Source: a virus. From it: a DNA stretch of 64,000 bases. A model generated the notes under the pieces. That model did no database searches. It was not told the DNA's origin and worked only from the letters and a program-made list of their open reading frames with translations. Shown piece by piece: positions 4,140 through 64,000 of this stretch (the stretch's first letter is position 1; each line of letters opens with the position of its first letter). The DNA is taken from positions 40,018 through 104,017 of the IMG/VR virus record IMGVR_UViG_3300034101_003783; one strand, 5' to 3'. The position numbers were made by a program, and so were the translations under genes.

Positions 4140-4154
4140 TAATCTTTTTTATTA

Positions 4155-4161
4155 ATAAATA
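4155..4161 (-). promoter_or_regulatory. Late-promoter-like TATTTAT, 15 bases before 4139
   Basis: TTATATTTATTAATAAAAAA on the coding strand, in the short gap after the HtrL-like gene. Confidence 0.55.
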
Positions 4162-4167
4162 TAACAA

Positions 4168-5838: not shown

Positions 5839-5846
5839 TTTGTTTT

Positions 5847-8627: not shown

Positions 8628-8631
8628 AATT

Positions 8632-9609: not shown

Positions 9610-9625
9610 TTTTTATTTTTTTATT

Positions 9626-9632
9626 ATAAATA
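9626..9632 (-). promoter_or_regulatory. Late-promoter-like TATTTAT, 16 bases before 9609
   Basis: ACTATTTATAATAAAAAAAT on the coding strand, ahead of the second fibre gene. Confidence 0.55.
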
Positions 9633-9634
9633 GT

Positions 9635-17937: not shown

Positions 17938-18633
17938 ATGGTCACAGTTTATACAGTAACTTATAACGAAGAGTTAATTATTGAGTTTTTTATAAATCAC
18001 TATAGAGAAAATTTTCCAAACTGTAAAATTGTAATATTTGATAACTATTCAACAGACAAAACTGTAGAAATCGCAAAATCATTTGGTTGTTGTGTAATAT
18101 TTTTTGATACTAATAATAAGTTTTCAGATAAAAAACATATTGAAATAAAAAATAGTTGCTGGAAAGATTCTGAAACTGAATGGGTTGTTGTGTGTGATTG
18201 TGATGAACTAATCCAAATTAATGAAGAACAATTAAAAAAAGAACAAAAAAACGGACATACAATCTTCAAATTTAACGGATATAATTTAATGAATCATAAT
18301 GATGGTAACTTAGAAGATATTTCCTATGGGTGGCCTGATGAAGGGTACGACAAAATTTTATTATTTAATAAAACAAAAATTAAAGAAATAAACTACAATT
18401 ATGGTTGTCACGAATCAAATCCGGTTGGGATTTTAAACTATTGTAAAAATTATAACATGTTTCACTATAATTTTTTGGGTAAAAATTATACAATTAATAG
18501 ATATAAAAATTTTTCAGAAAGACTATCTGAAGAAAATATAGAACTAAGGTTAGGTTATCACTATTTTAGTGATGAACAAGAAATTAATAAATTATACGAT
18601 AATAATAAAGGATTTTTAATTAAGTTAAAATGA
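17938..18633 (+). CDS. GT2-like glycosyltransferase
   Basis: A 231-residue protein with a GT-A nucleotide-binding start (VTVYTVTYNEELIIEFF), IVIFDNYSTDKTVEIA, and VVVCDCDELIQIN where a DxD-type acidic motif binds metal and sugar nucleotide. A later YGCHESNPVG segment is conserved in related GT2/GT92-type enzymes. It begins 6 bases after dut and overlaps the next glycosyltransferase by 4 bases (ATGA), showing tight operon organisation. The acceptor and sugar are unknown. Confidence 0.8.
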   Translation: MVTVYTVTYNEELIIEFFINHYRENFPNCKIVIFDNYSTDKTVEIAKSFGCCVIFFDTNNKFSDKKHIEIKNSCWKDSETEWVVVCDCDELIQINEEQLKKEQKNGHTIFKFNGYNLMNHNDGNLEDISYGWPDEGYDKILLFNKTKIKEINYNYGCHESNPVGILNYCKNYNMFHYNFLGKNYTINRYKNFSERLSEENIELRLGYHYFSDEQEINKLYDNNKGFLIKLK

Positions 18634-44821: not shown

Positions 44822-46474
44822 TTATTTTAATTTACCCATTAAGTCTTTCATTCTTAAAAATTGAGGGTTTTCGTATGTTTTAGATTCAATTAAATTAACC
44901 GCTGACCCTGTAGAGGGTGCTTTCATAACAGTTCTGTTAATAGATTCATTTATACTTTTATCAGACAATGTATTATTTGATAGTTCATTTTTAAGTATTT
45001 GATAAAGACTTTTGGATTCTTTTAAAGATTCAACGTTATCGAATCTTCTCAAAATATTAATTTTTTCTTGTTTTGTTGTTGAGTGTTCGGTAAACAATCT
45101 TGTTGCGTATGCCAAATTAGAATTAAAAACAGCTACTTCATTTAATTTTGTTCTAAACAAATCTAAAGCTTTTCTATATTCATCGTTCTTTTCTCTTAGA
45201 ATCTCAACTTCTTCTTTTAAATGTCTTGGTGCTGCAACTGGTTTATTTAAACCTTTTCTACCAAATCTTCTCCCAGCCCCTAAAGTTCTTGAAGCTTCTT
45301 TAGTTTCAGATTTTTTACCTCCTTTTATTTTGTTTATAATTTTCATAACAATTTCTGAATTAGGATCTTCATTATCGAAATCAAATTTAGCTTTACCTGA
45401 TTTTCCATAACGTTTAGAACCTTCTTTCATTTTTGTATTAAATCCACCTTCTTGGTTTGGTTTTTTACTATATTTGAATTTAGACGCACTACCTGTTTTT
45501 TGTTTAGATTCATTAACTTTGAATTTATCTGTTTCGTCACTCATACTTGACCAAGAGTCTTCACCAAGTTCATCTTCATAACTCATATCTTCATAAGTCA
45601 TCATGTCTTCACCAAGTTCATCTTCATAACTCATATCTTCATAAGTCATCATGTCTTCACCAAGTTCATCATCGTACAATCCGTCCATGCCTTCATAAGT
45701 CATCATGTCTTCACCAAGTTCATCATCGTACAATCCGTCCATGCCTTCATAAGTCATCATGTCTTCACCAAGTTCATCTTCATAACTCATATCTTCATAA
45801 GTCATCATGTCTTCACCAAGTTCATCTTCATAACTCATATCTTCATAAGTCATCATGTCTTCACCTAAACCAATGTCACCACCCATAGAGTCATCTCCGA
45901 CCTCAAGTTCATATAAAGTTTCTTCACTATCAAACTCATTTAAATAATCTTCTTCAGATTCATTAAGTTTTATAATGTATTCTGTGTCATTTTCCATATC
46001 CTTTAAGTCATAGTAATCTCCAATTTTCTCAATTGAAACTTTATCGTTTTTACCCATTTTTGAAAAGACGATAGCAACATCTTCGTCACTTGCTCCTCTC
46101 ATGTCAATGGTTTCTTCGTCGTCAGCCCCTACCATACCAACATCCGCCATTTCGTCGTCTTCTACGTCATCCATTTCGTCGTCTTCTACGTCATCCATTT
46201 CGTCGTCTTCTACGTCATCCATTTCGTCGTCTTCTACGTCAAAAGTTTCTTCATCATCAACCTCAACGTCTTCTTCTCCCTCAGGCGATGCAATAACCGC
46301 CTCTTCTTCATCATCAACCTCAACCTCATCTTGTTCTTTCAGAGATTCTTTTACTAAAGAATTGATTTCTTGCCTCATTGTCGATGCAAGTATTCCTTTT
46401 GCATTTTCTTTAAGAGCGTCCTCCAAATTTTTCATTTGAATAACTGCCTCTTCTACTACTGTTTTTCTACTCAT
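44822..46474 (-). CDS. Prohead scaffold-like acidic repeat protein (gp22 position)
   Basis: A 550-residue acidic protein. The N-terminal 60 residues are helical and contain RQEINSLVKESLKEQ, a site resembling a prohead-protease or targeting motif. The middle has tandem repeats of DDEMDDVE (four copies) and GEDMMTYE-based units of 16 or 18 residues (six copies). The C-terminal half is basic and helical (KEEVEILREKNDEYRKALDL). It lies between the protease and the capsid gene, the place of T4 gp22. I infer the core scaffold, degraded by the protease during maturation. No close relative is visible. Confidence 0.7.
   Translation of the reverse strand: MSRKTVVEEAVIQMKNLEDALKENAKGILASTMRQEINSLVKESLKEQDEVEVDDEEEAVIASPEGEEDVEVDDEETFDVEDDEMDDVEDDEMDDVEDDEMDDVEDDEMADVGMVGADDEETIDMRGASDEDVAIVFSKMGKNDKVSIEKIGDYYDLKDMENDTEYIIKLNESEEDYLNEFDSEETLYELEVGDDSMGGDIGLGEDMMTYEDMSYEDELGEDMMTYEDMSYEDELGEDMMTYEGMDGLYDDELGEDMMTYEGMDGLYDDELGEDMMTYEDMSYEDELGEDMMTYEDMSYEDELGEDSWSSMSDETDKFKVNESKQKTGSASKFKYSKKPNQEGGFNTKMKEGSKRYGKSGKAKFDFDNEDPNSEIVMKIINKIKGGKKSETKEASRTLGAGRRFGRKGLNKPVAAPRHLKEEVEILREKNDEYRKALDLFRTKLNEVAVFNSNLAYATRLFTEHSTTKQEKINILRRFDNVESLKESKSLYQILKNELSNNTLSDKSINESINRTVMKAPSTGSAVNLIESKTYENPQFLRMKDLMGKLK
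45558..45868. repeat. Tandem repeat in scaffold gene
   Basis: Six near-identical copies of the unit encoding GEDMMTYE plus 8 or 10 further residues (16 or 18 codons, 48 or 54 bp). Repeats are in frame and highly conserved at DNA level, so copy number may vary. Confidence 0.85.
46148..46243. repeat. 24-bp tandem repeat encoding acidic octapeptide
   Basis: Four direct copies of a 24-bp unit starting at 46148, 46172, 46196 and 46220, encoding DDEMDDVE-type octapeptides in the scaffold N-half. Confidence 0.85.
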
Positions 46475-46824: not shown

Positions 46825-47538
46825 TTATTTCAAATAATCGGACAATCTTTTCATTAAGTCAAGAGATTTATTTCCAGTTTCTCCAATATTTCTTTCTACT
46901 GCCATTTTTTTATCTTCTTCTAAATTTTCATCAAATTTTATTCTATCATTTTTATCTAAAAATAGATAAGCCCCTGGAGTTGATGGTGATGATACTAAAT
47001 CAAAACAAATAAGTTCAAAATCATCCTGTACTTCGTTTTGTTCCCCAACCTTTTTTAATGAACCAACTCCCCTAGAAGATATACCTAAAGTAACACCTTG
47101 TCTTAAGTAGTTAGCTGCCATATCCCCTTTTGTTGATACAATCCCTCTTTCGTGAAATCCAGGACTTGTAAGTAATTTTAATTTTCCTAAAAGTACAGGA
47201 CCGTCCCACCATACCTCAGTTATTATATGAGACACTCTATCAAGATCTATAAGTGAAGATTCAGGGTGATTAAGTTCTGACAGAGAAGTTCCTTTCTCAA
47301 TCAATTTTTTATAATTTTCGGCCTCTCTTTTTAATACTTTTTCTGGATATATTCTACCATTTCTATTTGGTGTATTATATTTTTGTAAAACAGCGTAAAA
47401 TTCAAATGGTTTTGAGTGGTCTAAAAATGTTTTAGATTCCATTATGTAGTGATTACTTTCTGTTTTTGGGTTGATATACCCAGCGTCGTATTCAATAAGG
47501 ATTCCTTTACCGGTTTCGTTTGGTCCTAAAATTTTCAT
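46825..47538 (-). CDS. Prohead protease (T4 gp21-like)
   Basis: A 237-residue protein of the gp21 (Peptidase U9/S80-type) family: YAVLQKYNTPNRNGRIYP, SELNHPESS (candidate catalytic His91), VTLGISSRGVGSL (candidate Ser154 or Ser155) and DLVSSPSTPGAY. It cleaves head proteins at (I/L)xE sites, as predicted for the capsid protein (LINE-A). Its position upstream of scaffold and capsid matches T4. A TATTTAT motif precedes its ATG by 14 bases. Confidence 0.9.
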   Translation of the reverse strand: MKILGPNETGKGILIEYDAGYINPKTESNHYIMESKTFLDHSKPFEFYAVLQKYNTPNRNGRIYPEKVLKREAENYKKLIEKGTSLSELNHPESSLIDLDRVSHIITEVWWDGPVLLGKLKLLTSPGFHERGIVSTKGDMAANYLRQGVTLGISSRGVGSLKKVGEQNEVQDDFELICFDLVSSPSTPGAYLFLDKNDRIKFDENLEEDKKMAVERNIGETGNKSLDLMKRLSDYLK

Positions 47539-48116: not shown

Positions 48117-48302
48117 ATGTTAATAGTCAAAGTAAAGAAAGGTGATATTGAGAGATCTTTAAAAGAGTTAAAAAGTAAGGTAATTAAAACAAGACAAAAT
48201 AGTTTATTAAATGATCTAAAAGAATATAAAAAAAAATCTGTCATTAAAAGACAGATTTTAAATAAAGCAAAATATCGACAAAAAAACTTTAATAATCTTT
48301 AA
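48117..48302 (+). CDS. rpsU: Ribosomal protein bS21
   Basis: A 61-residue bS21 homologue: MLIVKVKKGDIERSLKELKS, VIKTRQNSLLNDLKEYKKKS and KRQILNKAKYRQKNF follow the family over its full length. It would replace or compete with host bS21 on the 30S subunit near the anti-Shine-Dalgarno region, which in Bacteroidetes is occluded with the help of bS21. The gene lies alone on the plus strand inside the head cluster, convergent with 48299-49021 (4-base overlap). A TAATTTTG at 48072-48079 could be a -7 element, but no good -33 box is seen. Confidence 0.92.
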   Translation: MLIVKVKKGDIERSLKELKSKVIKTRQNSLLNDLKEYKKKSVIKRQILNKAKYRQKNFNNL

Positions 48303-49041: not shown

Positions 49042-50859
49042 TTAGCTATTTAGTAATTTATCTAACTCGTTTTCTATATCCCCTAAAGAATTTGAGGCTT
49101 TTGATAAATCTATATACTCATCTTCTGTTATATCGTCACTTTCTAAAAGTAAATTTAAATTATCTTTTTTAAAGTTTTCAGGGATTGGGGGTCCTCCGCC
49201 TTCAGCTCCTCCCCCTCCTGGCGGTGGTGGTGGTGCCCCTCCTGGCGGTGGTGGTGCTCCTGCTCCTCCTTCGGCTGGTGCCGCTCCCGCGGTTTGGGTG
49301 CTACCTGTTTGTACTTTATACAATTTGTCCACAGTATCAAAGAAACCTGTGTGTGTTATGATGGTTGGGGTATTTGCTAATTCAGCGGCCACCGCTCTTT
49401 CTAATCTTATTTGTTGTAATTCCATTTTAATTTCTTCATCTGAGAATCCAAAAATATGTTTCTTAGCCCAAGTTGCCGATGTTGGTTGTAATGAGTTAGG
49501 TATTTCTGTAACCATATCTTTATATAACAAAACTTTTTCTTTCCAAACCTCAACCATTAATAAATCAGCTTGTTTAGATGGGTTGGTTAAACCTAATGTA
49601 AAGTTTTGTAATTCATCTTCAAATCCTAAAAGGAATAAATGTATAATTGCAATTTTATTTAATTCAGCAATAACACTTTTTTGTATTTTGTGTATTGTTC
49701 TTGCAAATCTAATATCAAGTAATGAAAGATTTTTTCCATCACCAACAGGTTCCTCAAAACCTAAATAAGCTTTAGGTATTCTTAATGCGGTTAAAAGTTT
49801 CTTTTGTATATATTCAATATCGGCAATTTCCGATAAGTTAGCGGCCCCTGCCAATGTTTCAATTGGCATTGTTTGTGTTGCATCTCTTACAGGTATAAAG
49901 TAATCTTGGTCAACTGCCATCTGATTAAATCTTAAATCTACGTTACCAGTTTTAGAATCAACAATTTGATCTCTTTTAAATTTGTTTGCAACTCTTTGTA
50001 CGTAAGCTTCAACATCCTTATCATCCATGTTACCAACATAAACCTTAAACACACGTCTTTCAGGTGCTCTTGATGTTCTATATATTAACATCGCGTCTTC
50101 AGCAAGCACCAACTGTTTCCATATACGTCTGGCCTTTTCTAACATAGAAGTACCATAAGGTAATTTTCTATCATCTCCTAGTAATCTAAAATGAGCTATC
50201 TCCCAAGTGTTGAATTCCATGTCTTTGTTTTTCCATACAAACCTTAGATTTTTTTCTTTCATAGATGGAGTTGTATTTGTAGATCTTGTCTCCATACCAC
50301 GCTCTAATCTTTCGATTTCAATATTTGGTAATTGCATACAACTTACAACTCCTTTTTCAGGATCAAGTTTTAGATATACAAAATTATCACCATACTTACA
50401 CATGTTTCTTACCCACATTTGTAAGTTTGTGTTTATATCTAAATTATTATTAAATAAATCAACTAAAATACTTTTTATTCTTTTTGATTCAGAATAAACT
50501 TGTAAAATATAACCATCATGATTTGATGTTGTAGATTCTTCTGCATATATATCTAAAGCTGTAGATATTTCAGGAGTATATTCCATTGATTCATAATCAT
50601 AAAAAGCCGATATTCTATTTGGTTCATAATAAACCGCCTGACTATATAAATTATTCTCAATTTTTTTCCAATTGTCATTTAAAAATAAAGTTTGTTGTAT
50701 CTCTAATTTTTCTTTTTCAAATTGGGACTTATCTGTTGTTTTTAAAATTTCTTTTTTATCAAATTTATAAACAGGATCATCCATCCCCAATAAAGAATTG
50801 GGTCCAAATGTTTTGGATAACCTTTGCCAAACCGTTAAATCTTTTTTATTTTCTTCCAT
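49042..50859 (-). CDS. Portal protein (T4 gp20-like)
   Basis: A 605-residue portal: YTPEISTALDIYAEES, MWVRNMCKYGDNFVYLKLDP, GTSMLEKARRIWKQLVLAED, IYRTSRAPERRVFKVYVGNM (signature of gp20 portals), ADIEYIQKKLLTALRIPKAY and LSLLDIRFARTIHKIQ. The C-terminal region includes a Gly/Pro/Ala-rich stretch (GGAGAPPPPGGAPPPPPGG) and an acidic tail. It forms the dodecameric DNA channel at the head vertex and nucleates assembly. It follows the terminase gene with a 56-residue small gene between. Confidence 0.93.
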   Translation of the reverse strand: MEENKKDLTVWQRLSKTFGPNSLLGMDDPVYKFDKKEILKTTDKSQFEKEKLEIQQTLFLNDNWKKIENNLYSQAVYYEPNRISAFYDYESMEYTPEISTALDIYAEESTTSNHDGYILQVYSESKRIKSILVDLFNNNLDINTNLQMWVRNMCKYGDNFVYLKLDPEKGVVSCMQLPNIEIERLERGMETRSTNTTPSMKEKNLRFVWKNKDMEFNTWEIAHFRLLGDDRKLPYGTSMLEKARRIWKQLVLAEDAMLIYRTSRAPERRVFKVYVGNMDDKDVEAYVQRVANKFKRDQIVDSKTGNVDLRFNQMAVDQDYFIPVRDATQTMPIETLAGAANLSEIADIEYIQKKLLTALRIPKAYLGFEEPVGDGKNLSLLDIRFARTIHKIQKSVIAELNKIAIIHLFLLGFEDELQNFTLGLTNPSKQADLLMVEVWKEKVLLYKDMVTEIPNSLQPTSATWAKKHIFGFSDEEIKMELQQIRLERAVAAELANTPTIITHTGFFDTVDKLYKVQTGSTQTAGAAPAEGGAGAPPPPGGAPPPPPGGGGAEGGGPPIPENFKKDNLNLLLESDDITEDEYIDLSKASNSLGDIENELDKLLNS

Positions 50860-51109: not shown

Positions 51110-52879
51110 TTACTTACCAAATAACCAATTATATTTTATATAATCATCTTTAGTTGCCGAATTAATCTCCTTACCTAAATAATCTCTTTTAATATTTAAA
51201 TTAGGTAACACAGGATTAAAATGTACTTCTTTAGCAACAGAATCATTTGACGCCACAGTCCATGATTCTAACATGACTTTTGCCTGTTGTACTACTTTTT
51301 CTAATTTTGTAAATGAAAATTCCCCAACATATATTGCCATTGATATTCCCATTATTAAATCATCATGTTGTCCTTTTTGATGGTCAGGTCTTCCGTTAAT
51401 ATAAACAAATGTATTCATTTCATTATATAACCTAACACTTCTTATTTTAAACTTATGTCTTACCGCCTCCTCAAATGCGGCAATAATTTGTACTCTTTTA
51501 TTATTAAAGTTTAAACCAGGAATTTTATCCGCCATTTTTGTTGTGTTAGACCAAATACTTGTAGTATCGACTCCATCAACATACAAGTTTTTATAACCTA
51601 ATTCTTGTAATTTCCTTACTGTAGTTATACCCATACCGCCAGTTATGTCAACAACAACAAAAGCCGAATACATTATTGCCCATTTGTATGCAATTTCCGC
51701 CAAAGCGTCTGGAGGTATTTTTCCTACGTATTCAAAAACCTGTTCTCTATCGTCAAAATCAATTATTTGTATCGAACTAAAATCTTCGCTGTCACCTCTT
51801 GAAACATCAATGCCCATTATATACCTGTGACCTTGTATAGGATCTTTCCATACCCATAATGAGTTACCCATTAATTTTCCACTAGGATCACACAATGTAT
51901 TATTTTTTATTTCTTCTAATTGTTTGTTATCAAAAACATTATCACCCGAACCTAAAAATTCACAATTTAACTCTTGGTTAATTTTTCTTTTGTCGTACTT
52001 TAATTTTTTTACCATTTTTTCATACCATGTTGAGCATGGTTTGTAACCATCTTTAAAGTAATTTGAAATTTCTTCATAATTTCTTTCGTATGGATCAAGA
52101 TGTGCAAATGATATATGTTTAGATTCATCTTGTTCATCTTTATTTAAAAGGTAATGTACTAAATCGTCAGTAGGCACCAAAAATAAATCTTTTGCATATC
52201 TTGGGTCTCTCCACCAATACATTTCAGATATTTTAAAATTATTGATCCCTTTAACCGCCTGATTATATACATCATAATATATTGGATCATATCCATTTGG
52301 TGTTGATACAACTATAACTTTACCACCTGTAGAAAGTGATGCCATACAAGCCGCCCAAAAATCACTATCAGCCTCAATAAATGCCGCCTCATCAAATACA
52401 AGTATTGTCGGCGTAAAACCACGAAGTGCATCTTTTGATGTTGCAACCGCCTTTACCTCACTACCGTTTGTTAACTTGTAATGTTTTTGTGAGTTCTTAT
52501 CCACAGAAAATCCAGCACCAACCCATGAAGGCCACTGATCAACAAAAGTTCTTATTTTGTTTGCCATCTCCATTGAGGTATCAAGTTTATTGGCAATTAT
52601 AAGAATTTTTTCAGGTTGATTTTTTTTAGCAAAGACTAGTCTTTTTGAAACCCATGCGGCGGTAACTGTTGATACTCCGGCCTGTCTATATTTTAAAGCA
52701 ATATTTTCTTCATAATCCTCATAATCTTTTAACAATGAAACCTGATCTGGAAATAATTGTAAAGGGACATATTTAGAAACTGTATTATCATATGTTTGTA
52801 GATATGTCTTTAAAGCGTATTCAGTATCTTTCATACACCTAACATACTCCAACATGATTTGTTCTTTTGTTAAACTCAT
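51110..52879 (-). CDS. Terminase large subunit (T4 gp17-like)
   Basis: A 589-residue motor protein: Walker A-like ALKYRQAGVSTVTAAW (about 61-76), ILVFDEAAFI (Walker B, 159-168), VIVVSTPNGYDPIYYDV (coupling motif), and the nuclease half with IMGIDVSRGDSEDFSSIQII, FVVVDITGGMG and HDDLIMGISMA (RNase H-like metal ligands). It packages DNA into the prohead. A TATTTAT site lies 13 bases upstream. Confidence 0.95.
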   Translation of the reverse strand: MSLTKEQIMLEYVRCMKDTEYALKTYLQTYDNTVSKYVPLQLFPDQVSLLKDYEDYEENIALKYRQAGVSTVTAAWVSKRLVFAKKNQPEKILIIANKLDTSMEMANKIRTFVDQWPSWVGAGFSVDKNSQKHYKLTNGSEVKAVATSKDALRGFTPTILVFDEAAFIEADSDFWAACMASLSTGGKVIVVSTPNGYDPIYYDVYNQAVKGINNFKISEMYWWRDPRYAKDLFLVPTDDLVHYLLNKDEQDESKHISFAHLDPYERNYEEISNYFKDGYKPCSTWYEKMVKKLKYDKRKINQELNCEFLGSGDNVFDNKQLEEIKNNTLCDPSGKLMGNSLWVWKDPIQGHRYIMGIDVSRGDSEDFSSIQIIDFDDREQVFEYVGKIPPDALAEIAYKWAIMYSAFVVVDITGGMGITTVRKLQELGYKNLYVDGVDTTSIWSNTTKMADKIPGLNFNNKRVQIIAAFEEAVRHKFKIRSVRLYNEMNTFVYINGRPDHQKGQHDDLIMGISMAIYVGEFSFTKLEKVVQQAKVMLESWTVASNDSVAKEVHFNPVLPNLNIKRDYLGKEINSATKDDYIKYNWLFGK

Positions 52880-55481: not shown

Positions 55482-55878
55482 ACACTACTTTTTTATCAAA
55501 TTCAAGAACGATATCACGTTCATATAGTTTATCTTTTACTTCTTGTTCCGTTTCTCCAAACTTGAAGACCAACCTTTTAGTTATTGAAAAATCGATTTCA
55601 TTTGTTTCTTTTTCCCACCCTAAAGATATAACTCCATCCATTGAGTCCATCATTGAAAAAACATCTGAATTTTGAATCAATTCTAAAGATATTTCTCCAT
55701 TTATTAATGACCCAACTTTTTTAACATACTCAAAATCAGGGGGTGATGGATAACCATTTGATGGTTTTGATTCCCAATTTTCCCCCCAAACATCTAATGC
55801 GTCTGAAAATATGAATTCATAAATGTTGTCACCTTTATAATTAGGTCCCATTCCATTTATGTATATTAGATACATCAT
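55471..55878 (-). CDS. Conserved-looking phage hypothetical protein
   Basis: A 135-residue acidic protein starting MMYLIYINGMGPNYKGDN with aromatic-rich segments (SDALDVWGENWESKPSNG) and FSITKRLVFKFGETEQEV. It overlaps both flanking genes (11 and 4 bases), showing tight translational coupling. I have a weak impression that similar proteins occur in other T4-like Bacteroidetes phages, but I cannot name a family. Confidence 0.65.
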   Translation of the reverse strand: MMYLIYINGMGPNYKGDNIYEFIFSDALDVWGENWESKPSNGYPSPPDFEYVKKVGSLINGEISLELIQNSDVFSMMDSMDGVISLGWEKETNEIDFSITKRLVFKFGETEQEVKDKLYERDIVLEFDKKVVYEN

Positions 55879-57227
55879 AGAACTCTTTTTCCGCTGGTTG
55901 AAATTTTATGTTCCTTTAACCCAACTTTAAATAATAAGTTCTTTTTATTTGTAGACCCAATTAGAGTTGCTCTTGGATTTTTTTCTAAAAACTTTAATGC
56001 CGCTCTTTCTTGAGAAATGGTTGATGATAATCTTTTAATTTCCATTTCATTAACCATAAAATTTTCTTTTAAAATATTTTGATTTAATCTTTTTTTATTA
56101 TTTAAAGATTTTTTTTCATCTTCTGTGATTGAGAAATATTTACCGATAATTTTGTCAACTTTAGATTCTGAAAACATATTATCAACTCTAGTACCTAAAG
56201 GACCAACTTGCATTCTATTTCTATTTCTATAACCATATTCAGTCATTTCACCATCTTCAGTTGGTGGTTGAGGGGTTTCTATTTCTGGAGATTCTTCATC
56301 TTCCATACCTTCTTCATCTCCCATTCCTGTATCTCCTTCTTCCTCATCTTCTTCTTCACCTTCTAAACGATCTATTATTTCTTCTACATCTTCATCGTCT
56401 AATACAGAAATGTCTAATGAAGATATTATTGAATTTAATATATATTTAACGTCGTCAGAATCCATCTCTTCGTTATTAAGATATTTTCTAATTTTTTGTG
56501 AAAGTTTTCCTGTTAATTTTTGTATTAACTTAAAAGAAACTCCCCCTTTTTCTTTTCCTTCTTCATCTCCCATTGGTTCTTCATCTCCCATTGGTTCTTC
56601 ATCCCCCATTCCTGTGTCTCCTTCTTCATCTCCCATAGGTGATCCACCTGTTTCAGGTGCTCCACCAGCCATAGGATCAGGTGCTCCACCAGCCATAGGA
56701 TCAGGCGCTCCACCAGCCATAGGATCAGGTGCTCCACCAGCCATAGGATCAGGCGCTCCACCAGCCATAGGATCAGGTGATGAGGATGGGGCAGGTGCCG
56801 GTTCAGGTAATGTTGGTGCCTCTTCAGGGGCAACATCCGCCTTTGGTTTGGCAACCTTTAATTTAAATTTTTTCTGTTCTGTAAATAAATTAGTCCCTTT
56901 ATCATTATCATATAAAGTATTAAATTCTTTGGCCATTAAATTTAATTTTTTTAATGCTTCAGAATATGATCTAAAATATCTCCTATTTTTCATAGGTTCT
57001 ATATAATCAGAATAAGATTCTGTTATATTTCTTTTTATAATATAACCTTGTCTTTCTTTTACAATTTCATACGAATTACCATCCGCCAGAGGTAGTCTAT
57101 ATTCTGTTGATTTTAATTCTATTTCTTTATTAGGTAATGAATGATTGTAATTAGCAATCTCCATAATTCTACGAATTTTATCCATACCACCTAATTTTTC
57201 ACTTCCAATAGGTTTAAGTCCTCCCAT
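55875..57227 (-). CDS. Repeat-containing structural protein
   Basis: A 450-residue protein. The first 120 residues are globular (GGLKPIGSEKLGGMDKIRRI, LADGNSYEIVKERQGYII). The middle has five copies of DPMAGGAP and later EEPMGD acidic repeats, and the remainder is helical (NSIISSLDISVLDDEDVEEI, TISQERAALKFLEKNPRATL). The acidic and Gly/Pro-rich parts look like flexible linkers of a scaffold or internal protein. It is the first gene of the minus-strand group to the left, with a promoter motif 32 bases upstream. Function unknown. Confidence 0.65.
   Translation of the reverse strand: MGGLKPIGSEKLGGMDKIRRIMEIANYNHSLPNKEIELKSTEYRLPLADGNSYEIVKERQGYIIKRNITESYSDYIEPMKNRRYFRSYSEALKKLNLMAKEFNTLYDNDKGTNLFTEQKKFKLKVAKPKADVAPEEAPTLPEPAPAPSSSPDPMAGGAPDPMAGGAPDPMAGGAPDPMAGGAPDPMAGGAPETGGSPMGDEEGDTGMGDEEPMGDEEPMGDEEGKEKGGVSFKLIQKLTGKLSQKIRKYLNNEEMDSDDVKYILNSIISSLDISVLDDEDVEEIIDRLEGEEEDEEEGDTGMGDEEGMEDEESPEIETPQPPTEDGEMTEYGYRNRNRMQVGPLGTRVDNMFSESKVDKIIGKYFSITEDEKKSLNNKKRLNQNILKENFMVNEMEIKRLSSTISQERAALKFLEKNPRATLIGSTNKKNLLFKVGLKEHKISTSGKRVL
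56656..56775. repeat. Five 24-bp repeats encoding DPMAGGAP
   Basis: Five in-frame direct repeats of 24 bp, differing only at a wobble position (GGTGCT versus GGCGCT). Copies start at 56656, 56680, 56704, 56728 and 56752. Confidence 0.9.
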
Positions 57228-57301: not shown

Positions 57302-58039
57302 TTATTGATTCATTGATAATTTTTTATCAACAACTTCTGTTGGTATATCGTATAGTTTACCAATATATCCATTTCTTCTTAATAGTTTAAATACCAAATT
57401 TTCTATTGATAATTCCCCACCTTTTTCTAATCCACAATTTCTAAATTTTTTTAATTTTTGTTTGTATTTTTTAACTAATGATTTAATTGTATCCGGAGTT
57501 TCATCTTTAATATTATCCACAACCCCATCAATAACCTTCATCCATTGTTCTGCCTTTTCTCTAACTAAATCTAAATCAACGTTTTTTGTACTTATTTTTT
57601 TAGGTTCATTAACCCACATATCATAATATATAGAATATATACCGCTACTAAATGTTGTCTCAACCTCATCTTGGACAAAGCATTCAACGTCATAACCAAA
57701 AATTTTAATATCATGTCTATCGTTAAAAATTACTTTTTTAAGATCAAAAAACTCAACATAAAGTTCTTTAGTGTTATCAGAAAATTGTCCGTAATTAACA
57801 ACTATGTGCAAATCAATATCTGAATATTTTGACCAGTTGTAATTAACCAAAGATCCTATCATAATGATATCAGTTATCAAAACGTCGACTCCTAAAAAGT
57901 CAATAAAAAGATTTGCAATTTCTAAAAGGTTTTCTCTAACTTTTGGGTTCATGGAATACTCTCCATTTTTTTCTTCCCATATTTTTGGGTTTAGCTCATC
58001 TTGAGCATCAAAACTTTTAATTATATCTTGAGTATTCAT
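57302..58039 (-). CDS. Nucleotidyltransferase (Pol beta fold)
   Basis: A 245-residue protein with the signature of the Pol beta superfamily: IIMIGSLVNYNWSKYSDIDL, giving GSxxx...DxD, plus HIVVNYGQ and a third acidic position in DIKIFGYDVECFVQDE. The rest is helical with lysine-rich segments (LVKKYKQKLKKFRNC). It could transfer a nucleotide to RNA, protein or a small molecule; the target is unknown. Related NTases occur in other T4-like phages. A TATTTAT motif lies 4 bases upstream of the ATG. Confidence 0.8.
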   Translation of the reverse strand: MNTQDIIKSFDAQDELNPKIWEEKNGEYSMNPKVRENLLEIANLFIDFLGVDVLITDIIMIGSLVNYNWSKYSDIDLHIVVNYGQFSDNTKELYVEFFDLKKVIFNDRHDIKIFGYDVECFVQDEVETTFSSGIYSIYYDMWVNEPKKISTKNVDLDLVREKAEQWMKVIDGVVDNIKDETPDTIKSLVKKYKQKLKKFRNCGLEKGGELSIENLVFKLLRRNGYIGKLYDIPTEVVDKKLSMNQ

Positions 58040-58058: not shown

Positions 58059-58301
58059 TTATAGTTTTTTGTATTTGTAAATTTTAGATATGTTTTTATT
58101 AAAGTACGTCCCTTGCGAAGGAGACATTCTAAACTCAGTATATTTTACATGTGGGACATCTTCATATTCATATCTAAGACCATTTTTAAATTCTGCAATC
58201 ATTTTTCTTGTTTCAGTATCATATTCTGTTCTTACAATATTTGATGATTGTATTTCATTTAAAATTTTTGTTCCCTTTATTTCTTCTCTTGTTACCGACA
58301 T
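58059..58301 (-). CDS. KTSC-domain protein
   Basis: An 80-residue protein matching the KTSC domain: IQSSNIVRTEYDTETRKMIA, EFKNGLRYEYEDVPHVKYTE and SQGTYFNKNISKIYKYKKL. Stand-alone KTSC proteins are frequent in phages; their molecular role is not well established. It lies between the NTase and the UVR-repeat protein genes, 4 bases after the latter. Confidence 0.85.
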   Translation of the reverse strand: MSVTREEIKGTKILNEIQSSNIVRTEYDTETRKMIAEFKNGLRYEYEDVPHVKYTEFRMSPSQGTYFNKNISKIYKYKKL

Positions 58302-58305
58302 AATT

Positions 58306-58683
58306 TTATTTTAACAATTTTATTTGGTCTCTGTATTCTATAGCCTTTTCAAAATCTTGGTTTTTAACACATTCTGCTAATTTAAGGTTTAATTCATAAA
58401 TTTTTTCCGTATTTTTTTCTAAATTTTTAATTTTATCTCTTAACTCAACAGCTTCCTCGAAATTTTGATCCTCAACAGCAAACTCTAATTTATTTTTTAA
58501 AAATTCAATTTCCTCTGAAGTATTGTTATTCTTAGAATAATTTTTTGTAAGGTAGGTTATTGAATAGGAACCATCAGGAGATTTAAAAACTTTTTTTTCC
58601 CAACTATTATCGTTAAGATTAATTCCACTTTTAAATGAAAACATATCATTAAAAAGTTTATCAAATTCATTCCAATTAAACAT
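58306..58683 (-). CDS. UVR-repeat protein, possible Clp adaptor
   Basis: A 125-residue protein with a short N-domain followed by two UVR motifs: LKNKLEFAVEDQNFEEAVEL and LKLAECVKNQDFEKAIEYRD, at about residues 63-90 and 97-125. UVR motifs occur in UvrB/UvrC, ClpC and the ClpC-linked McsA. The gene is divergent from the ClpC-like gene, 161 bases away, so an adaptor or regulator of that unfoldase is an attractive inference. It has no zinc-finger cysteines of McsA. Confidence 0.75.
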   Translation of the reverse strand: MFNWNEFDKLFNDMFSFKSGINLNDNSWEKKVFKSPDGSYSITYLTKNYSKNNNTSEEIEFLKNKLEFAVEDQNFEEAVELRDKIKNLEKNTEKIYELNLKLAECVKNQDFEKAIEYRDQIKLLK

Positions 58684-58844
58684 AATATTTTATTTTTTTA
58701 AGGTTTATTTTTTTTGTGTTTTATTAAAATCATACCATAATAGAAAATATGACAATTTGTCAGTTAATATAAATAAATACCGACAAAAAGACAAGTATTG
58801 ACTACTACTTTTCTTATAATTAAATTTAAATAAAACTTTTAAAT

Positions 58845-60890
58845 ATGTTAGACTTTGTAGATGATAATGAAAAAAACAAAAAGAAAGGAGAAACAGGAAC
58901 TCCAGTTTTAGATAACTTTAGTAAAGATTTAATTAAACAAGCCGAATTAGGAAAATTAGATCCTGTTATTGGCAGAGAAAAAGAAATCTTTAGAATAGCC
59001 CAAGTTTTATCAAGAAGAAAAAAAAATAATCCTATTATTATAGGGGAACCTGGTGCAGGAAAAACCGCAATTGTTGAGGGTTTGGCCATGATGATATATA
59101 GTGGCGATTGTCCTAAAAATTTAGCAGATAAAAGAATTGTTTCTTTGGATATAAATTCTATAGTGGCAGGAACAAAATATAGGGGTCAATTTGAAGAAAG
59201 GATGAAAGTAATAATTGAAGAATTACAAAACACTCCTAATATTATTTTATTCATCGATGAAATACACACAATGGTTGGTGCTGGTAATAGTTCAGGTTCT
59301 TTAGATGCCTCTAATATCTTTAAACCCGCATTATCAAGAGGTGAAATACAATGTATTGGAGCCACAACACTTGATGAATATAGAAAGCATTTTGAAAAGG
59401 ACGGAGCATTAGAAAGAAGATTTCAAAAAATAATTGTAGATCCGTCAACAAAAGAAGAAACATTCCAAATTCTACAACAAAGTAAAAGTAAATATGAGGA
59501 TCATCATAAAGTAAATTATACAGATGAATCACTTTGGTTATGTGTTGAATTGGCGGATAGGTATATTACAGATCGTGAATTTCCTGATAAGGCGTTTGAC
59601 ATCTTAGATGAGGTTGGGTCTAGAATGCAAATAGATATTAAATTGCCCGAAGAGATTGAATTATTAAAAATAGAGGCACAAGAAATTAAAAAAGAAAAAG
59701 TTAATGTAATAAAAAAACAAAACTATGAACAGGCGGCGGAACTTAGAGATAGGGAGAGAAGTGTTTTAATGAAATTAGAAGAAGAAAGAAAAAAATTTGA
59801 GGATAATCTAAAAAACAGTAAAAGGGGAATACCCGAAGATCTAATTTATGAAGTAGTCTCAAATATGACTAAAATTCCTGTTAGTAAAATAAACATAGAT
59901 GAAAAAAATTCTTTAGTTAATCTTGAGTCAGTTCTTAATAAAAATGTAATTGGTCAAGAAGACGCTGTTGGTAAGATATCAAAATCTATAAGGAGAAATA
60001 GGGTTGGAATTAAGGACCCAAATAGACCTATCGGATCATTCATATTTTTGGGATCAACCGGTGTTGGTAAGACTTTTTTAGCAAAAAAATTAGCAAAAGA
60101 AATATTTGGTAGTGAGGATAGTTTGATTCGTGTTGATATGTCCGAATATCAAGAGAAACACACAATCTCAAGACTTATTGGTTCTCCTCCAGGATATGTA
60201 GGACATGAGGAAGGTGGTCAATTAACAGAACAAGTTAAGAATAAACCATACTCTGTTATTCTATTTGATGAGATAGAGAAAGCAAATAAAGATATATTTT
60301 CAACACTATTACAAATGCTTGATGATGGTCACTTAACTGATGGATTAGGTAGAAAGATAAATTTCAAAAACTGTTTAATAATTATGACATCAAATATTGG
60401 TGTTAGAAAAATACAGGACTTTGGAAGTGGTGTTGGATTTAAAACAAATAATAATAGTGATGAGGTCCAGGAAGAATATAAAAGAGACATCCTTAAAAAA
60501 GAATTAAGTAAGTTTTTTGCTCCTGAATTTTTAAATAGGATAGATGATGTTATAATTTTTAATTCCCTAAAAAAAGATCATATCGATAAGATTGTTAAAC
60601 TTGAAATTGACAAATTAATAGGTAGGCTACTATCTATGAAATATAAAGTTTCTTATGAAAACTCTGTTATTGATTTAATTAGTAAGGTTGGTTTTGATGA
60701 ACAATATGGTGCAAGACCAATTAAACGAGCAATCCAAAATAAAATAGAGGATCTTATTTCTGAAAAAATATTAACTAATGAAGTTTTGGAGGGTGTTGAT
60801 TATAAATTAAGTGTTTCTGATGAGGAAATAAAAATTGATGTAGATGTGGTTAATAAACCAAAAAAGGGTAGAAAGAAAAAGGAGGATTAA
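58845..60890 (+). CDS. clpC: ClpC-like AAA+ unfoldase lacking N-domain
   Basis: A 681-residue double-AAA+ protein. D1 has GEPGAGKTAIVEG (about 68-80), ILFIDEIHTMVGAGN, GATTLDEYRKHFEKDGALER; a UVR motif sits in the middle domain (KKEKVNVIKKQNYEQAAELR); D2 has FLGSTGVGKTFLAK, VILFDEIEKAN and FAPEFLNRIDD. FGSGVGFKT aligns with the ClpP-docking loop (VGF) of ClpC, so host ClpP partnership is plausible. The 140-residue double-Clp N-domain is absent; the chain begins at DNFSKDLIKQAELGKLDPVI. It should unfold proteins using ATP in the cytoplasm. It is followed immediately by a terminator. Confidence 0.9.
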   Translation: MLDFVDDNEKNKKKGETGTPVLDNFSKDLIKQAELGKLDPVIGREKEIFRIAQVLSRRKKNNPIIIGEPGAGKTAIVEGLAMMIYSGDCPKNLADKRIVSLDINSIVAGTKYRGQFEERMKVIIEELQNTPNIILFIDEIHTMVGAGNSSGSLDASNIFKPALSRGEIQCIGATTLDEYRKHFEKDGALERRFQKIIVDPSTKEETFQILQQSKSKYEDHHKVNYTDESLWLCVELADRYITDREFPDKAFDILDEVGSRMQIDIKLPEEIELLKIEAQEIKKEKVNVIKKQNYEQAAELRDRERSVLMKLEEERKKFEDNLKNSKRGIPEDLIYEVVSNMTKIPVSKINIDEKNSLVNLESVLNKNVIGQEDAVGKISKSIRRNRVGIKDPNRPIGSFIFLGSTGVGKTFLAKKLAKEIFGSEDSLIRVDMSEYQEKHTISRLIGSPPGYVGHEEGGQLTEQVKNKPYSVILFDEIEKANKDIFSTLLQMLDDGHLTDGLGRKINFKNCLIIMTSNIGVRKIQDFGSGVGFKTNNNSDEVQEEYKRDILKKELSKFFAPEFLNRIDDVIIFNSLKKDHIDKIVKLEIDKLIGRLLSMKYKVSYENSVIDLISKVGFDEQYGARPIKRAIQNKIEDLISEKILTNEVLEGVDYKLSVSDEEIKIDVDVVNKPKKGRKKKED

Positions 60891-60906
60891 AAACCCTCCT
60901 TTTTTA
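60876..60906. terminator. Bidirectional terminator between clpC and peptidase gene
   Basis: AGGAGG pairs with CCTCCT, with an A-run before and a T-run after, so it works on both strands. It overlaps the clpC stop and lies just before the stop of the convergent M20-type gene. Confidence 0.85.
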
Positions 60907-61692
60907 TTAATGTTTAGTATAACCAAGTTCCTCAATCATTAACTTACCGACTTTAATACCATTGTAAGTGTCATCTACAACAACATATTCATTTCTAGTG
61001 TGATAGTTGTAATAACCAATAGATATATTAAAACAGGATAAACCAAAATTTTGATTCAAAGGATAAATGTCGGTGTAAGGATGTTTGTGATATTTTGTAT
61101 CACCAGGAAAATGTTCTGTAATTAATTTACCACCAACATTAAAAAATTCACTATCTCTTTTAAACATTGGTCTATTCATTAAAAACTCAGATATCATATT
61201 GTTTTCCGGAGCATCAAACTGAATAGCATAACCAACATTTTTAAAAAAGTTAGGATCCGCATTAAATGACCCTTTACATCCGGTTTCCTCAGCAATAAAA
61301 AAAGCCGCCTTTAAATTAGGTAATTCTTTAAGTAGTTCCAAACAAGCATAAACACCACATTTATCGTCACCACCAATTCCTGTTGGGTTTCCTTCATCAT
61401 TATAGGCCTTTAAAGAAAGTTTAACGTTTCCTTGAGCGTCAGGTAACATTTCTTCTTTTACGTTTATAGTATCAAGACTATGTACAGTGTCTGTATGGGC
61501 AACTACACAAGGAAAATACTCTATATTTTCATCTGTTTGTTTTGTTGCGTAAATATTATATAAATCATCAACATAGTAATCTATATTGTTTTTTTCTAAC
61601 CAATCACAGATAAATTGTATTAATAAATCTTCTTGATAAGTTTTAGAAGGTACAGATAGTACCTCTTTGAGTAAATTATAGTCTCTTTCCAT
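60907..61692 (-). CDS. M20-family-type zinc peptidase
   Basis: A 261-residue metallopeptidase with the M20 order: VVAHTDTVH (H66, D68), GIGGDDKCGVYACLELL (bridging Asp at about 109), FFIAEETGCKGS (catalytic and metal Glu at 135-136), AIQFDAPEN (D160) and YYNYHTRNEYVVVD (late His). It is shorter than typical M20 enzymes (350-400), with the dimerisation domain apparently missing, as in some peptidase T-like or M42-like forms. It may degrade peptides released by Clp proteolysis, which is inference. It has a host-type promoter. Confidence 0.8.
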   Translation of the reverse strand: MERDYNLLKEVLSVPSKTYQEDLLIQFICDWLEKNNIDYYVDDLYNIYATKQTDENIEYFPCVVAHTDTVHSLDTINVKEEMLPDAQGNVKLSLKAYNDEGNPTGIGGDDKCGVYACLELLKELPNLKAAFFIAEETGCKGSFNADPNFFKNVGYAIQFDAPENNMISEFLMNRPMFKRDSEFFNVGGKLITEHFPGDTKYHKHPYTDIYPLNQNFGLSCFNISIGYYNYHTRNEYVVVDDTYNGIKVGKLMIEELGYTKH

Positions 61693-61696
61693 TTTA

Positions 61697-61729
61697 CAAA
61701 GATATGGAAATTAATTATTAATTACAAAA
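61697..61729 (-). promoter_or_regulatory. Bacteroidetes-type promoter before 61692
   Basis: On the minus strand TTTTG (61729-61725), a 20-base spacer, then TATCTTTG (61704-61697). This is the same spacing and the same -7 octamer as the promoter at 38967-39002. The ATG is only 4 bases downstream, so the transcript would be leaderless or nearly so. Confidence 0.75.
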
Positions 61730-62801
61730 TAATCCCCTTGATTTTTTTAATTTCTTCAAATAATTCAGGATGGTATAAAGATAAATTTAATTCCTCCATA
61801 TCTTTAACAGATCTATCCTCAGTTGCTTTACCAGTTTCAGGACTTCTATAATAAAAAGTTAAAATTCCCTTTTTAGTGTCTAAATCTCTAAAATAAACCT
61901 CAGCCTTTTTTTCCTTTAAATTAATCCACCTATTAAATCCACCTAGTTCATCGACTTTATTATAAAGATCGTTTATTTCCTCAAGATCAACATTTTCTGA
62001 AATCTCTTCTTCAATTTTCTCTATAATTTTTTCTAACGTACTTTTAGTGTTTCTATCAAAAGTATCTCTATCAAAATCCTCACACCAAACATTATATTCT
62101 AACTCATACCAATCACCTCTATCTGTTTTATCATATCTTAAAACTAATGTCTGTAGTAATTCTTCTAAATCGGCTTCTTTAACATCTAAATTATCATACC
62201 AGTGTAATAAAACATTAACAGTTGTTTTAAATCTTCTACCGTATTCTTGAGTTATCCCAAATTTACGAAAAGGACTTTTTGTTTCAGATTCTAAAACGTT
62301 CTTTACCGCCCTTGTTTTACATTCTTCACTTAATTCAGTGTAGTCATTTATTATATACTCTATATCATCAAATCTTTTATATAAGTAATTTGACACCTTA
62401 GATTCGCTATCTTCATCATTAATATCAAAATTTAAAGTAGGGTTAGAAATTGCCAATATTTTTTTAACAAGTTCTATATTTTCAGGACTAAATTCTCTTA
62501 TTAAATAACCTTCTCTCCAGTCCTCGTTATATCTATCATATTCATAATCATAACCATAATAATAATTCCCCATAAATTTGTTCCAAATATAAATGTCATC
62601 ATCGTCATCAATATTTAAGACCTTTAAGTATTCCTCATCATTTTCAAAAACGATATAAACTATTGTAGATCCTGGATGTTGACTGTTGTATTTTATATCA
62701 TAAATTAAATTTGGATATGACCATCTATTAAATGATATGTTTGAAGTGTCTCCCTCTGAGATTGTTTTTAAAAATTCATATGTTTCGCTATAATCAGACA
62801 T
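61722..62801 (-). CDS. Acidic hypothetical protein
   Basis: A 359-residue strongly acidic protein (SDYSETYEFLKTISEGD) with an Asp/Tyr-rich region (GNYYYGYDYEYDRYNEDW), a helical middle (IIEKIEEEISENVDLEEIND) and a beta C-terminus (KAEVYFRDLDTKKGILTFYY). No family recognised. The last bases overlap the -33 box of the peptidase promoter, and a TATTTAT motif lies 7 bases upstream of its ATG. Function unknown. Confidence 0.7.
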   Translation of the reverse strand: MSDYSETYEFLKTISEGDTSNISFNRWSYPNLIYDIKYNSQHPGSTIVYIVFENDEEYLKVLNIDDDDDIYIWNKFMGNYYYGYDYEYDRYNEDWREGYLIREFSPENIELVKKILAISNPTLNFDINDEDSESKVSNYLYKRFDDIEYIINDYTELSEECKTRAVKNVLESETKSPFRKFGITQEYGRRFKTTVNVLLHWYDNLDVKEADLEELLQTLVLRYDKTDRGDWYELEYNVWCEDFDRDTFDRNTKSTLEKIIEKIEEEISENVDLEEINDLYNKVDELGGFNRWINLKEKKAEVYFRDLDTKKGILTFYYRSPETGKATEDRSVKDMEELNLSLYHPELFEEIKKIKGIIL

Positions 62802-62808
62802 TATAAAG

Positions 62809-62815
62809 ATAAATA
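62809..62815 (-). promoter_or_regulatory. Late-promoter-like TATTTAT, 7 bases before 62801
   Basis: TATATTTATCTTTATAATG on the coding strand; the A-run after the heptamer is missing, so this is a weak match. Confidence 0.35.
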
Positions 62816-62893
62816 TATTAAAATTTGGATATAAGTTAATTTATACTTATATTTGTATTATTATATTTATTTAATATAGTTCTTTGAAATTAT

Positions 62894-63286
62894 GGGGGTG
62901 TTTTTGGATTTGACAGGTATTGGCTGAAGAATAAGGGCATGTAGGGACTGAGTTAATCTCTTTAAAAACTGACTTAGAAAACAACTGGCAATGTGCTAAA
63001 CAAAATGGAAACTCTTGGATTAGTAAGAGGTTCTGAAGTTACTGTAGCTTAAGAAGTTTACGGAAACGGGGGGTCGGCAGACATATAACCTAGCAACAGA
63101 AGTCGTAGTTTGATAGAGCACACCGGATGGCTCTCTAAATCCGATTCGGGACCATTGGTTGTTGATTTACGATGGTGAAGAACAAATCAACTATTTTGGG
63201 GTATTAAAAAATACCAACCTAAACATGTAGTTGTCTCTTAGACAAAACGAACCGGACGTGGGAGTCGGAGCCCACTAGGTCCACCA
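62894..63286 (+). ncRNA. ssrA: tmRNA (transfer-messenger RNA)
   Basis: The 393-base gene has the tmRNA 5' signature GGGGGTG...TGGATTTGACAGG and ends with GGACGTGGG...CCCACTAGGTCCACCA, an encoded CCA. Near the 3' end TTGTCT-CTT-AGACAA and GTGGG/CCCAC form clear stems. A reading frame ending GTA GCT TAA at 63044-63052 gives a tag ending ...GSEVTVA; the resume codon is uncertain (GGC at 62987 would give 21 residues). The acceptor stem I can draw has G3-U, but G4 and G5 face G, so it looks imperfect. It would rescue stalled ribosomes and tag products for Clp proteolysis. A bidirectional terminator follows. Confidence 0.9.
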
Positions 63287-63289
63287 ATT

Positions 63290-63327
63290 AAAAAACCCCA
63301 CCTTTTTAGGATGGGGTTTTATTTTTT
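63290..63327. terminator. Bidirectional terminator after tmRNA
   Basis: AAAACCCCA-CC and GG-ATGGGGTTTT form a hairpin with one bulge and with A and T runs on both sides. It can end the tmRNA and the convergent gene 63327-64000. Confidence 0.85.
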
Positions 63328-64000
63328 TAGAGGATTACTCTCATATATCTATTAATTTCTCTTATTTCTTCTAAAACATCTTCAGCCATTGGTACTGGTT
63401 GTTTTTTTGGTTGCACTTGTTTAGTTGCTATAGCACCACCTGTTTGAATTCCTTGTCCCGTTTGTTGTTGGTTTTTATAGTCACCTCTTTGTACGTCACC
63501 AACAACTTGTTCTGCACCCTCAATACTTTTATTAGTAGTTTTAAGAGTTTCTTTTGTTCCTTTTGTTATTTTTTCTACACCTTCTGCACCAGTTTTAACT
63601 TTACCCACTAAATTTTCAGCATCTTTTATTTTATCAAGTTTTTCACCACCAGTTTTAATTGATTCTATGGCCTTTTTACCTTCTTTTGCAACTAAAACAG
63701 TGTTTGCCATAATATCAAATGTTGTACAATACGCTGCACCCCATTTACAAACTATAGGTCTTGCCTGATCAACAGTAAGTTTTTCCCCATTTTCCCACAA
63801 ATAATCTTCAATTTTTGTAACAGCCTTTTTATCTAAAGTCTCAACAATTTTTTGTCCTAGTTTTGTTTCTAATTTTTGAAGTATACCTTTACCAAAACTT
63901 TTTGCTAAACTCTTACCCCAAGTTGCCATATAATTTACTGCTTTATATTTTGCTAAACTCTCAATACCTTTCTCAACCAGTTTTCCTGTTGACTTACCAA
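63327..64000 (-). CDS. Lys/Gly/Thr-rich hypothetical protein, 5' end outside window
   Basis: The frame is open to the right edge (GKSTGKLVEKGIESLAKYKA precedes the ATG at 63929), so the gene probably starts outside the window; at least 223 residues are encoded. It contains a helix-rich segment (GILQKLETKLGQKIVETLDK), a Cys pair (IVCKWGAAYCTTFD) and low-complexity repeats (KTGAEGVEKITKGTKETLKT). The C-terminus is MAEDVLEEIREINRYMRVIL, resembling the short amphipathic tails of other virion proteins here. A large internal or ejected virion protein is possible. Confidence 0.65.
   Translation of the reverse strand, partial: GKSTGKLVEKGIESLAKYKAVNYMATWGKSLAKSFGKGILQKLETKLGQKIVETLDKKAVTKIEDYLWENGEKLTVDQARPIVCKWGAAYCTTFDIMANTVLVAKEGKKAIESIKTGGEKLDKIKDAENLVGKVKTGAEGVEKITKGTKETLKTTNKSIEGAEQVVGDVQRGDYKNQQQTGQGIQTGGAIATKQVQPKKQPVPMAEDVLEEIREINRYMRVIL

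Follow-up and report, generated by a model that had tools for sequence, protein, structure and literature searches.

Why does a phage carry a gene for transfer-messenger RNA (tmRNA), and what would that gene do in the company of a protein unfoldase and a peptidase? The purpose of phage tmRNAs, which have long been known, is unclear. The question is raised in concrete form by a 64,000-nucleotide stretch of viral DNA (the window), which comprises positions 40018-104017 of the 104,017-base IMG/VR record IMGVR_UViG_3300034101_003783; the right edge of the window is the end of the record. A first-pass annotation had placed four elements inside 5 kb of this window: a ClpC-like double-AAA+ ATPase with a ClpP-docking loop and without an N-domain, a divergent protein with two UVR motifs, an M20-type peptidase and a tmRNA. 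All four are indeed there, and the case for the cluster turned out stronger than first put. We propose, with a probability of about 0.5, that the cluster is a phage-run module for ribosome rescue and protein disposal. The evidence comes from the gene content of the cluster, its conservation in relatives, the selection on the tag encoded by the tmRNA and the exchange of the gene that faces clpC.

The unfoldase (681 aa; 58845-60890, plus strand) was identified with PHROG 4871, phmmer and Pfam. Its match to PHROG 4871 starts at position 161 of 764, indicating that the N-terminal part is missing, and in phmmer its residues 14-666 align with residues 155-805 of Staphylococcus aureus ClpC at 724 bits. 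No Clp_N domain was found in the protein or across the whole 104-kb record. Both AAA+ modules are present, and the Walker A and B motifs, the pore loops and the docking motif are retained. Judged from its sequence, the window protein is an N-domain-less member of the ClpC lineage rather than a canonical ClpC, in agreement with the first-pass annotation. The docking loop reads VGF (residues 530-532; 60432-60440, plus strand) as that annotation had reported, and comparison with relatives showed VGF, IGF, MGF or LGF at this place in 83 of 89. A UVR motif of the ATPase's own, also claimed at first, is present as well, but it is the ordinary tip of the ClpC M-domain, which PF02151 (UVR) matches in 26 of 35 phage ClpCs. 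The tip in the window is NYEQAAELRD (59721-59750, plus strand), where Y294 aligns with F436 of S. aureus ClpC. The motif [YF]..A..[LI]RD is visible in all 89 relatives, in 85 by pattern and in 4 by eye in the M-domain sequence. One relative, L272, has two ClpC-like genes near each other (4119-6170 and 7884-10025).

The gene for the UVR protein (125 aa; 58306-58683, minus strand) is transcribed away from clpC across a gap of exactly 161 bases, and its two UVR motifs were confirmed with Pfam (UVR, E 2.9e-19). An AlphaFold2 model with a predicted local distance difference test score (pLDDT) of 69 places helices at residues 4-19, 54-71, 75-107 and 111-124 and strands at 28-34 and 41-47. This corresponds to a short N-terminal helix, a beta hairpin and two UVR hairpins. 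When the UVR profile was compared with the PDB, the best match was the UVR domain of McsA (McsA 137-177) and the ClpC M-domain came second; when the model was compared, the higher-probability matches were ClpC M-domains from resting-state and MecA-bound entries, with weak E-values. The C-terminal UVR hairpin of McsA is thus common to the phage protein, whose gene adjoins clpC. The phage protein differs from McsA in its two UVR motifs, its single cysteine and its different N-terminal part. It is not McsA because the one cysteine in its translation does not allow the CXXC zinc-binding motifs of that protein, and no McsB was found beside its gene. Having the same hairpin as the M-domain tip, the UVR protein is the obvious candidate competitor for the tip contact, and it would be expected to touch ClpC. 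In plastids, UVR proteins were trapped by CLPC1 (PMC8889267).

The position facing clpC is not reserved for UVR proteins. In 69 dereplicated loci, where this gene is divergent from clpC and mostly 100-200 bp away, it encodes a UVR protein in 34, an Hsp20 (PF00011) in 14 and a DnaK (PF00012) in 4. A UVR protein and an Hsp20 were never seen in the same locus (chance 1.5e-5 when kinship is ignored), and 7 exchanges of one for the other can be counted on the tree. The two families appear similar in their N-terminal arm (MF..FD.LF...F), though with no more than a marginal profile match (E 0.005-0.01). Since UVR, Hsp20 and DnaK alternate there, the divergent slot looks like a place for an exchangeable proteostasis partner. 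We rejected an essential role of the UVR gene in the module, as 35 of the 69 loci are without it. The tree is consistent with the UVR partner having arisen where the N-domain was lost, which would be one evolutionary event.

The 161 bp between the UVR gene and clpC (58684-58844) form a divergent promoter region common to both, with sequence blocks conserved in 12 relatives. An operator-like palindrome, TGACAATTTGTCA, lies within it (58750-58762) and has its sole copy in the window there. Across 1.21 Mb of relatives' loci there are 51 copies of the pattern TGACA-N3-TGTCA, of which 50 are at most 350 nt upstream of clpC. It is present in 40 of the 48 loci with a UVR or Hsp20 partner versus 2 of the 21 without. 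Of the independent pairs drawn from the tree, about 6 point in the direction of this association and none points against it (median sign-test p 0.03). No wider regulon was seen, the other genomic copies examined being mostly inside coding sequence. We regard TGACA-N3-TGTCA as a candidate operator at the partner/clpC promoter. A T4-late-promoter-like sequence, TATAAATA, was also considered in the intergenic region and was dropped, with 29 occurrences found against 20.5 expected and no clear enrichment; a consensus promoter scan gave no excess over shuffles.

Downstream of clpC on the opposite strand is the gene for the M20-type metallopeptidase (261 aa; 60907-61692, minus strand). The first-pass assignment to this family is upheld by the metal and catalytic positions H66, D68, D109, D110, E135, E136, D160 and H231, which are invariant in 15 members, though the Pfam score of 23.2 bits is slightly under the cut-off of 24.6; the match to PHROG 4191 has an E-value of 1.5e-34. 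The closest solved structures are Xaa-His dipeptidase and peptidase T. The peptidase gene accompanies clpC in 67 of the 69 dereplicated loci, in either orientation.

The tmRNA gene (ssrA; 62894-63286, plus strand) matches Rfam RF00023 with 45.5 bits (E 8.7e-17). A tmRNA had been read here from the sequence at first, and the match and the tag frame speak for it, but the score is slightly under the gathering score of 47 bits, so that recognition depended on the E-value threshold. ARAGORN found no tmRNA in the window. The low Rfam score is due to a mismatched acceptor stem; the encoded CCA is present. In the relatives the picture is more regular. The RF00023 cut-off is exceeded in 38 of 50 relatives' records, and among 71 tmRNAs examined the acceptor stem has all 7 bp in 68, with G3.U70 conserved and with compensated types that include GGGGGTG/CACCTCC, GGGTCCG/CGGATCC, GGGCCTA/TAGGTCC and GGGGATG/CATCTCC. 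Two others have 6 acceptor pairs, probably as their true 3' end was not located. Because of these scores, the compensated 7-bp stems and G3.U70, we take the tmRNAs of the lineage to be genuine and to carry the alanine identity pair.

The 3' end of the window tmRNA is suspect past about position 63231. The window and relative L082, whose tmRNA has an intact acceptor stem, are 99.5% identical up to 63231, a point within the conserved AACATGTAGT. Past it, the 3' 55 nt of the window tmRNA match another class, GGGCCTA/TAGGTCC. From this break in identity, and with the record ending 0.77 kb beyond it, 63232-64000 is probably a foreign contig end that was joined inside the tmRNA. An assembly join is the most likely origin of the mismatched 3' end, and a natural recombinant is a possible one. 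Beyond 63231/63232 there is little similarity to the relatives' loci, and the last open reading frame led by tblastn to L383 only. A terminator-like GC hairpin with a T-run directly follows the encoded CCA (63287-63326, plus strand); it was read from the sequence and is visible in the Rfam alignment but missing from the output of the consensus scan.

The reading frame of the tag, GGC...TAA (GNVLNKMETLGLVRGSEVTVA; 62987-63052, plus strand), is backed by a codon-pattern test and is the same frame that ARAGORN reports in L017 and L022. Tags of the lineage have 21-22 residues and follow G-[NDEK]-[VT]-[LF]-x-K-[ML]-...-G-L-...-V-x-[VA]-A, and the Bacteroidota genomes compared have 9-residue tags of the GENNYALAA type. 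In 44 distinct coding sequences the third codon positions vary most (column permutation p <5e-5). The ratio of nonsynonymous to synonymous polymorphism (pN/pS) is 0.58 in frame versus 0.80 and 1.06 out of frame, and residues G1, G11 and L12 are unchanged in 39 peptides. Based on the excess at third positions, the lower in-frame pN/pS and the invariant residues, the pattern of substitution indicates that the tag is under selection as a peptide. Two unlike tmRNAs, each with its own long tag (GNILENATVGHFVAEDAAVVA and GNEFDIDENFLDTASVEVGTGEVAFA), occur together in one huge phage record, G103 (the record of L309).

The cluster was followed through IMG/VR relatives from three starting points. In loci found with ClpC as the query, a tmRNA is on clpC's strand in 83, at 1.9-5.6 kb downstream (median 2.3); of those without a visible tmRNA, 22 are too short and the remaining one, L045, stops at the limit, so that no locus of sufficient length is without a tmRNA. 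In loci found with the UVR protein, clpC is divergent next door in 24 of the 24 that include the flank. A search with the tag pattern returned 74 tmRNA loci, with clpC in 50 and less than 2.6 kb on that side in the other 24. Chance co-location is excluded because the cluster is conserved in about 80 relatives. The genes are not unlinked in relatives, and the earlier claim that they belong together stands. In a ClpC tree of 129 sequences the 69 rows of the window lineage form a single clade, fully supported by the Shimodaira-Hasegawa-like approximate likelihood ratio test (SH-aLRT). Every member is without the N-domain and has a linked tmRNA wherever the flank is long enough. The nearest sister groups have the same neighbors (ktsc, ntp and o135), a full-length ClpC and no linked tmRNA.

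Some relatives also bring other parts of the machinery. ClpP was found in 12 of 65 relatives' records, all in one part of the tree and with Ser-His-Asp motifs visible, and SmpB in 5 of 65, in 4 of these at 0.1-0.9 kb from the tmRNA; both counts are lower bounds, as the records may be fragments. Neither was found in 270-300 kb records such as G001, G024 and G050. Where a phage record is without both, ClpP and SmpB would be needed from the host, whose copies may serve.

In the proposed module the contacts between proteins, the fate of substrates and the timing would be as follows. The tmRNA, charged with alanine (G3.U70), would work with host or phage SmpB to free ribosomes that stall on broken messages during infection, adding an alanine and the 21-22-residue phage tag to the stalled chains. 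The N-domain-less ClpC would dock on ClpP, which would be the host's or, in one part of the tree, the phage's own, and the tagged chains would go straight into its pore. The M-domain tips, which lock rings head-to-head in known N-domain-less ClpC, would be engaged by the UVR partner with its same hairpin, and this engagement would unlock the ring, deliver substrates or both. In loci without UVR, an Hsp20 or DnaK encoded in the same divergent slot would supply the substrates. The M20 peptidase would trim the released peptides to amino acids, and the dedicated operator in the divergent promoter would switch the partner and ClpC together. An S. aureus ClpC engineered to lack the N-domain dimerizes head-to-head as rings that meet via their M-domains, and its rods with ClpP have no proteolytic activity; once the F436 tip contact is broken, this ClpC degrades GFP-SsrA via the pore as well as MecA-activated ClpC does (PMC12583610). 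Among phage proteins, Gp53 of SPO1 has been proven to act as a ClpC adaptor (PMC6873191), and amino-acid recycling has already been proposed for a phage tmRNA (PMC9004378).

A number of observations weigh against a rescue and disposal module. No recognized partner was found in 17 of the 69 N-domain-less loci. The acceptor stem of the window tmRNA has 5 of 7 pairs, with G3.U70 kept, and neither ClpP nor SmpB was found in the window's own record, which is a fragment. In a separate group of N-domain-less ClpCs, from huge phages, a tmRNA is missing next to clpC and nearly always missing from the record as well, so loss of the N-domain alone does not predict a linked tmRNA. Within the window lineage, N-domain loss and linkage are a single evolutionary event and therefore a correlation only. 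In sister phages whose ClpC is full-length, tmRNA genes at a distance from clpC encode related long tags (GNILENATVGHFVAEDAAVVA, GDVFANATVGHFVTEGATVAA). Because these tags are carried by unlinked tmRNAs, the long phage tag probably predates the tmRNA-clpC linkage, and the idea that it was invented for the N-domain-less ClpC was rejected. In addition, since gene order in the structural regions of phages is generally stable, linkage by itself proves little about a joint function. Host-derived genes could have landed in such a region and persisted there as passengers without acting together, and ktsc, ntp, o135 and o450 are equally syntenic. That the partner has repeatedly been replaced by other proteostasis genes speaks against passengers, as do the one operator at one promoter, the purifying selection on the tag and the active sites, and the scattered SmpB genes beside the tmRNA; we consider this explanation improbable. 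The neighboring head genes suggest another role, in which ClpC and its UVR, Hsp20 or DnaK partner would act mainly as a disaggregase for virion proteins during assembly and the tmRNA would be an independent aid to translation. Hsp20 and DnaK are disaggregation partners, and the tmRNA is unlinked in the sister phages. Against such a role stand the ClpP loop retained in 83 of 89 relatives, the ClpP encoded by some of them and the strict linkage of the tmRNA in the window lineage, and we think it unlikely.

Two further readings concern what is degraded and by whom. The first-pass annotation had supposed that the cluster reprograms host ClpP to degrade tagged or host proteins; in the version aimed at the host it would redirect ClpP against host or defense proteins with the UVR protein as the substrate adaptor. 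The conserved ClpP loop would fit, as would the kinship of the UVR hairpin with McsA and with the ClpC M-domain, and phage ClpC adaptors do exist (PMC6873191). Nothing that we found points at host proteins or links the cluster to host targets, however, and a tmRNA acts on stalled translation rather than on chosen proteins. The partner slot, moreover, alternates with general chaperones. An attack on the host therefore seems to us quite unlikely, and phage-run quality control is favored because the slot swaps UVR, Hsp20 and DnaK and because some relatives bring ClpP and SmpB. A different matter is whether the disposal is orthogonal to that of the host, with the long tag read poorly by host ClpXP and mainly by the phage ClpC, independent of host adaptors. 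The tag is without ALAA, is more than twice the length of Bacteroidota tags, is conserved from end to end and shares only the Gly resume codon with them; a subset of relatives has its own ClpP and some members have SmpB. Escherichia coli ssrA variants that end in LVA are degraded. With their small hydrophobic ends, VA or AA, the phage tags may be readable by host ClpXP, and similar long tags accompany full-length ClpC and unlinked tmRNAs in other phages. We consider an orthogonal channel possible though doubtful. The fullest version, a complete alternative tag-and-destroy pathway apart from host ssrA-ClpXP, with a private degron written by the tmRNA, an N-domain-less ClpC as its reader, a swappable UVR/Hsp20/DnaK gate and one operator, is a tentative proposal that we hold to be rather doubtful.

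The cluster adjoins the genes of a T4-like head module, all on the minus strand: the large terminase (51110-52879), the portal (49042-50859), the head protease (46825-47538) and the major head protein (42844-44751). Two proteins of this module (55875-57227 and 44822-46474, minus strand) have long tandem peptide repeats (PDPMAGGA; MTYEDMSYEDELGED), and a 697-aa protein with a GEVED domain (PF20009; 40604-42697, minus strand) adjoins the major head protein. Opposite the head genes is a gene for a bS21-like small ribosomal protein (48117-48302, plus strand; PF01165 E 8e-6, slightly under the cut-off), as in described bS21 phages. Two constant neighbors of the cluster are kept in relatives, a KTSC-domain protein (58059-58301, minus strand; PF13619 E 3.9e-16) and a nucleotidyltransferase-like protein (57302-58039, minus strand; PF01909 at the cut-off, PHROG 36119 E 2.2e-39). 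Between the M20 gene and the tmRNA is an orphan gene (359 aa; 61722-62801, minus strand) that the first-pass annotation had passed over and that occurs in most relatives; its AlphaFold2 model is confident (pLDDT 89.8) and had no PDB or BFVD fold match at E <= 0.001. Farther away, a 503-aa protein has two glycosyltransferase domains (18630-20141, plus strand). The host is likely a member of the Bacteroidota, since the closest cellular ClpCs are from Bacteroidales (56% identity) and Marinilabiliales (54%) and since the tmRNA tag begins with Gly as in Bacteroidota.

The gene set of the window virus resembles that of the moraphages (PMC12619734). A Clp ATPase, a putative peptidase and a "lysine-tRNA ligase" are listed in the moraphage core, and some moraphages have DnaK, DnaJ or HSP20 (PMC12619734); the "lysine-tRNA ligase" is likely the KTSC protein. 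In the bS21 phages of Bacteroidota, Clp and Hsp20 are found near bS21 (PMC9723584). A tmRNA is absent from both texts (PMC12619734, PMC9723584) and UVR is absent from the moraphage text (PMC12619734), the bS21 text not having been searched for it; the portions of these papers that were consulted do not describe the partner slot or the operator. Phage-encoded tmRNAs are known from mycobacteriophages, Bacillus phage G, huge phages and Melnitz (PMC4131195, PMC7162821, PMC9004378), and the parts of those reports that were consulted do not mention a tmRNA gene linked to ClpC, a partner gene and a peptidase. The tag of Bacillus phage G (L254; AKLNITNNELQVA, by ARAGORN) likewise ends in VA and not in ALAA. 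The parts of the module are of known kinds; the literature searched yielded no report of the linked module, the swapped partners, the operator or the long tags. Here the tmRNA is tied to an unfoldase, a peptidase and a swappable chaperone partner across dozens of genomes, and the question of why phages carry tmRNA becomes a testable pathway.

The phage system shares with bacterial trans-translation a tmRNA with the alanine pair, an encoded CCA and a tag frame, and in some relatives SmpB. It differs in that the tmRNA gene is linked to an unfoldase and in that the tag has 21-22 residues without ALAA, compared to 9 in Bacteroidota, with only the Gly resume codon in common; this divergent set of tags would be useful for degron work. 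With SPO1 Gp53, too, a phage controls ClpCP by means of an adaptor-like protein (PMC6873191), but Gp53 acts on the ClpC of the host whereas the window phage brings its own. With the ClpC of Bacillus subtilis and S. aureus, the phage ClpC shares two AAA+ domains, an M-domain with a UVR-type tip and the ClpP loop, although the tip of the phage proteins mostly carries Y in place of the F of S. aureus. In contrast to these ClpCs, and to the S. aureus protein engineered to lack the N-domain, the phage form is naturally without it in all 89 relatives seen. It thus offers a natural version of a ClpC that has otherwise been examined in engineered form, and in the UVR partner a candidate natural key for the M-domain lock.

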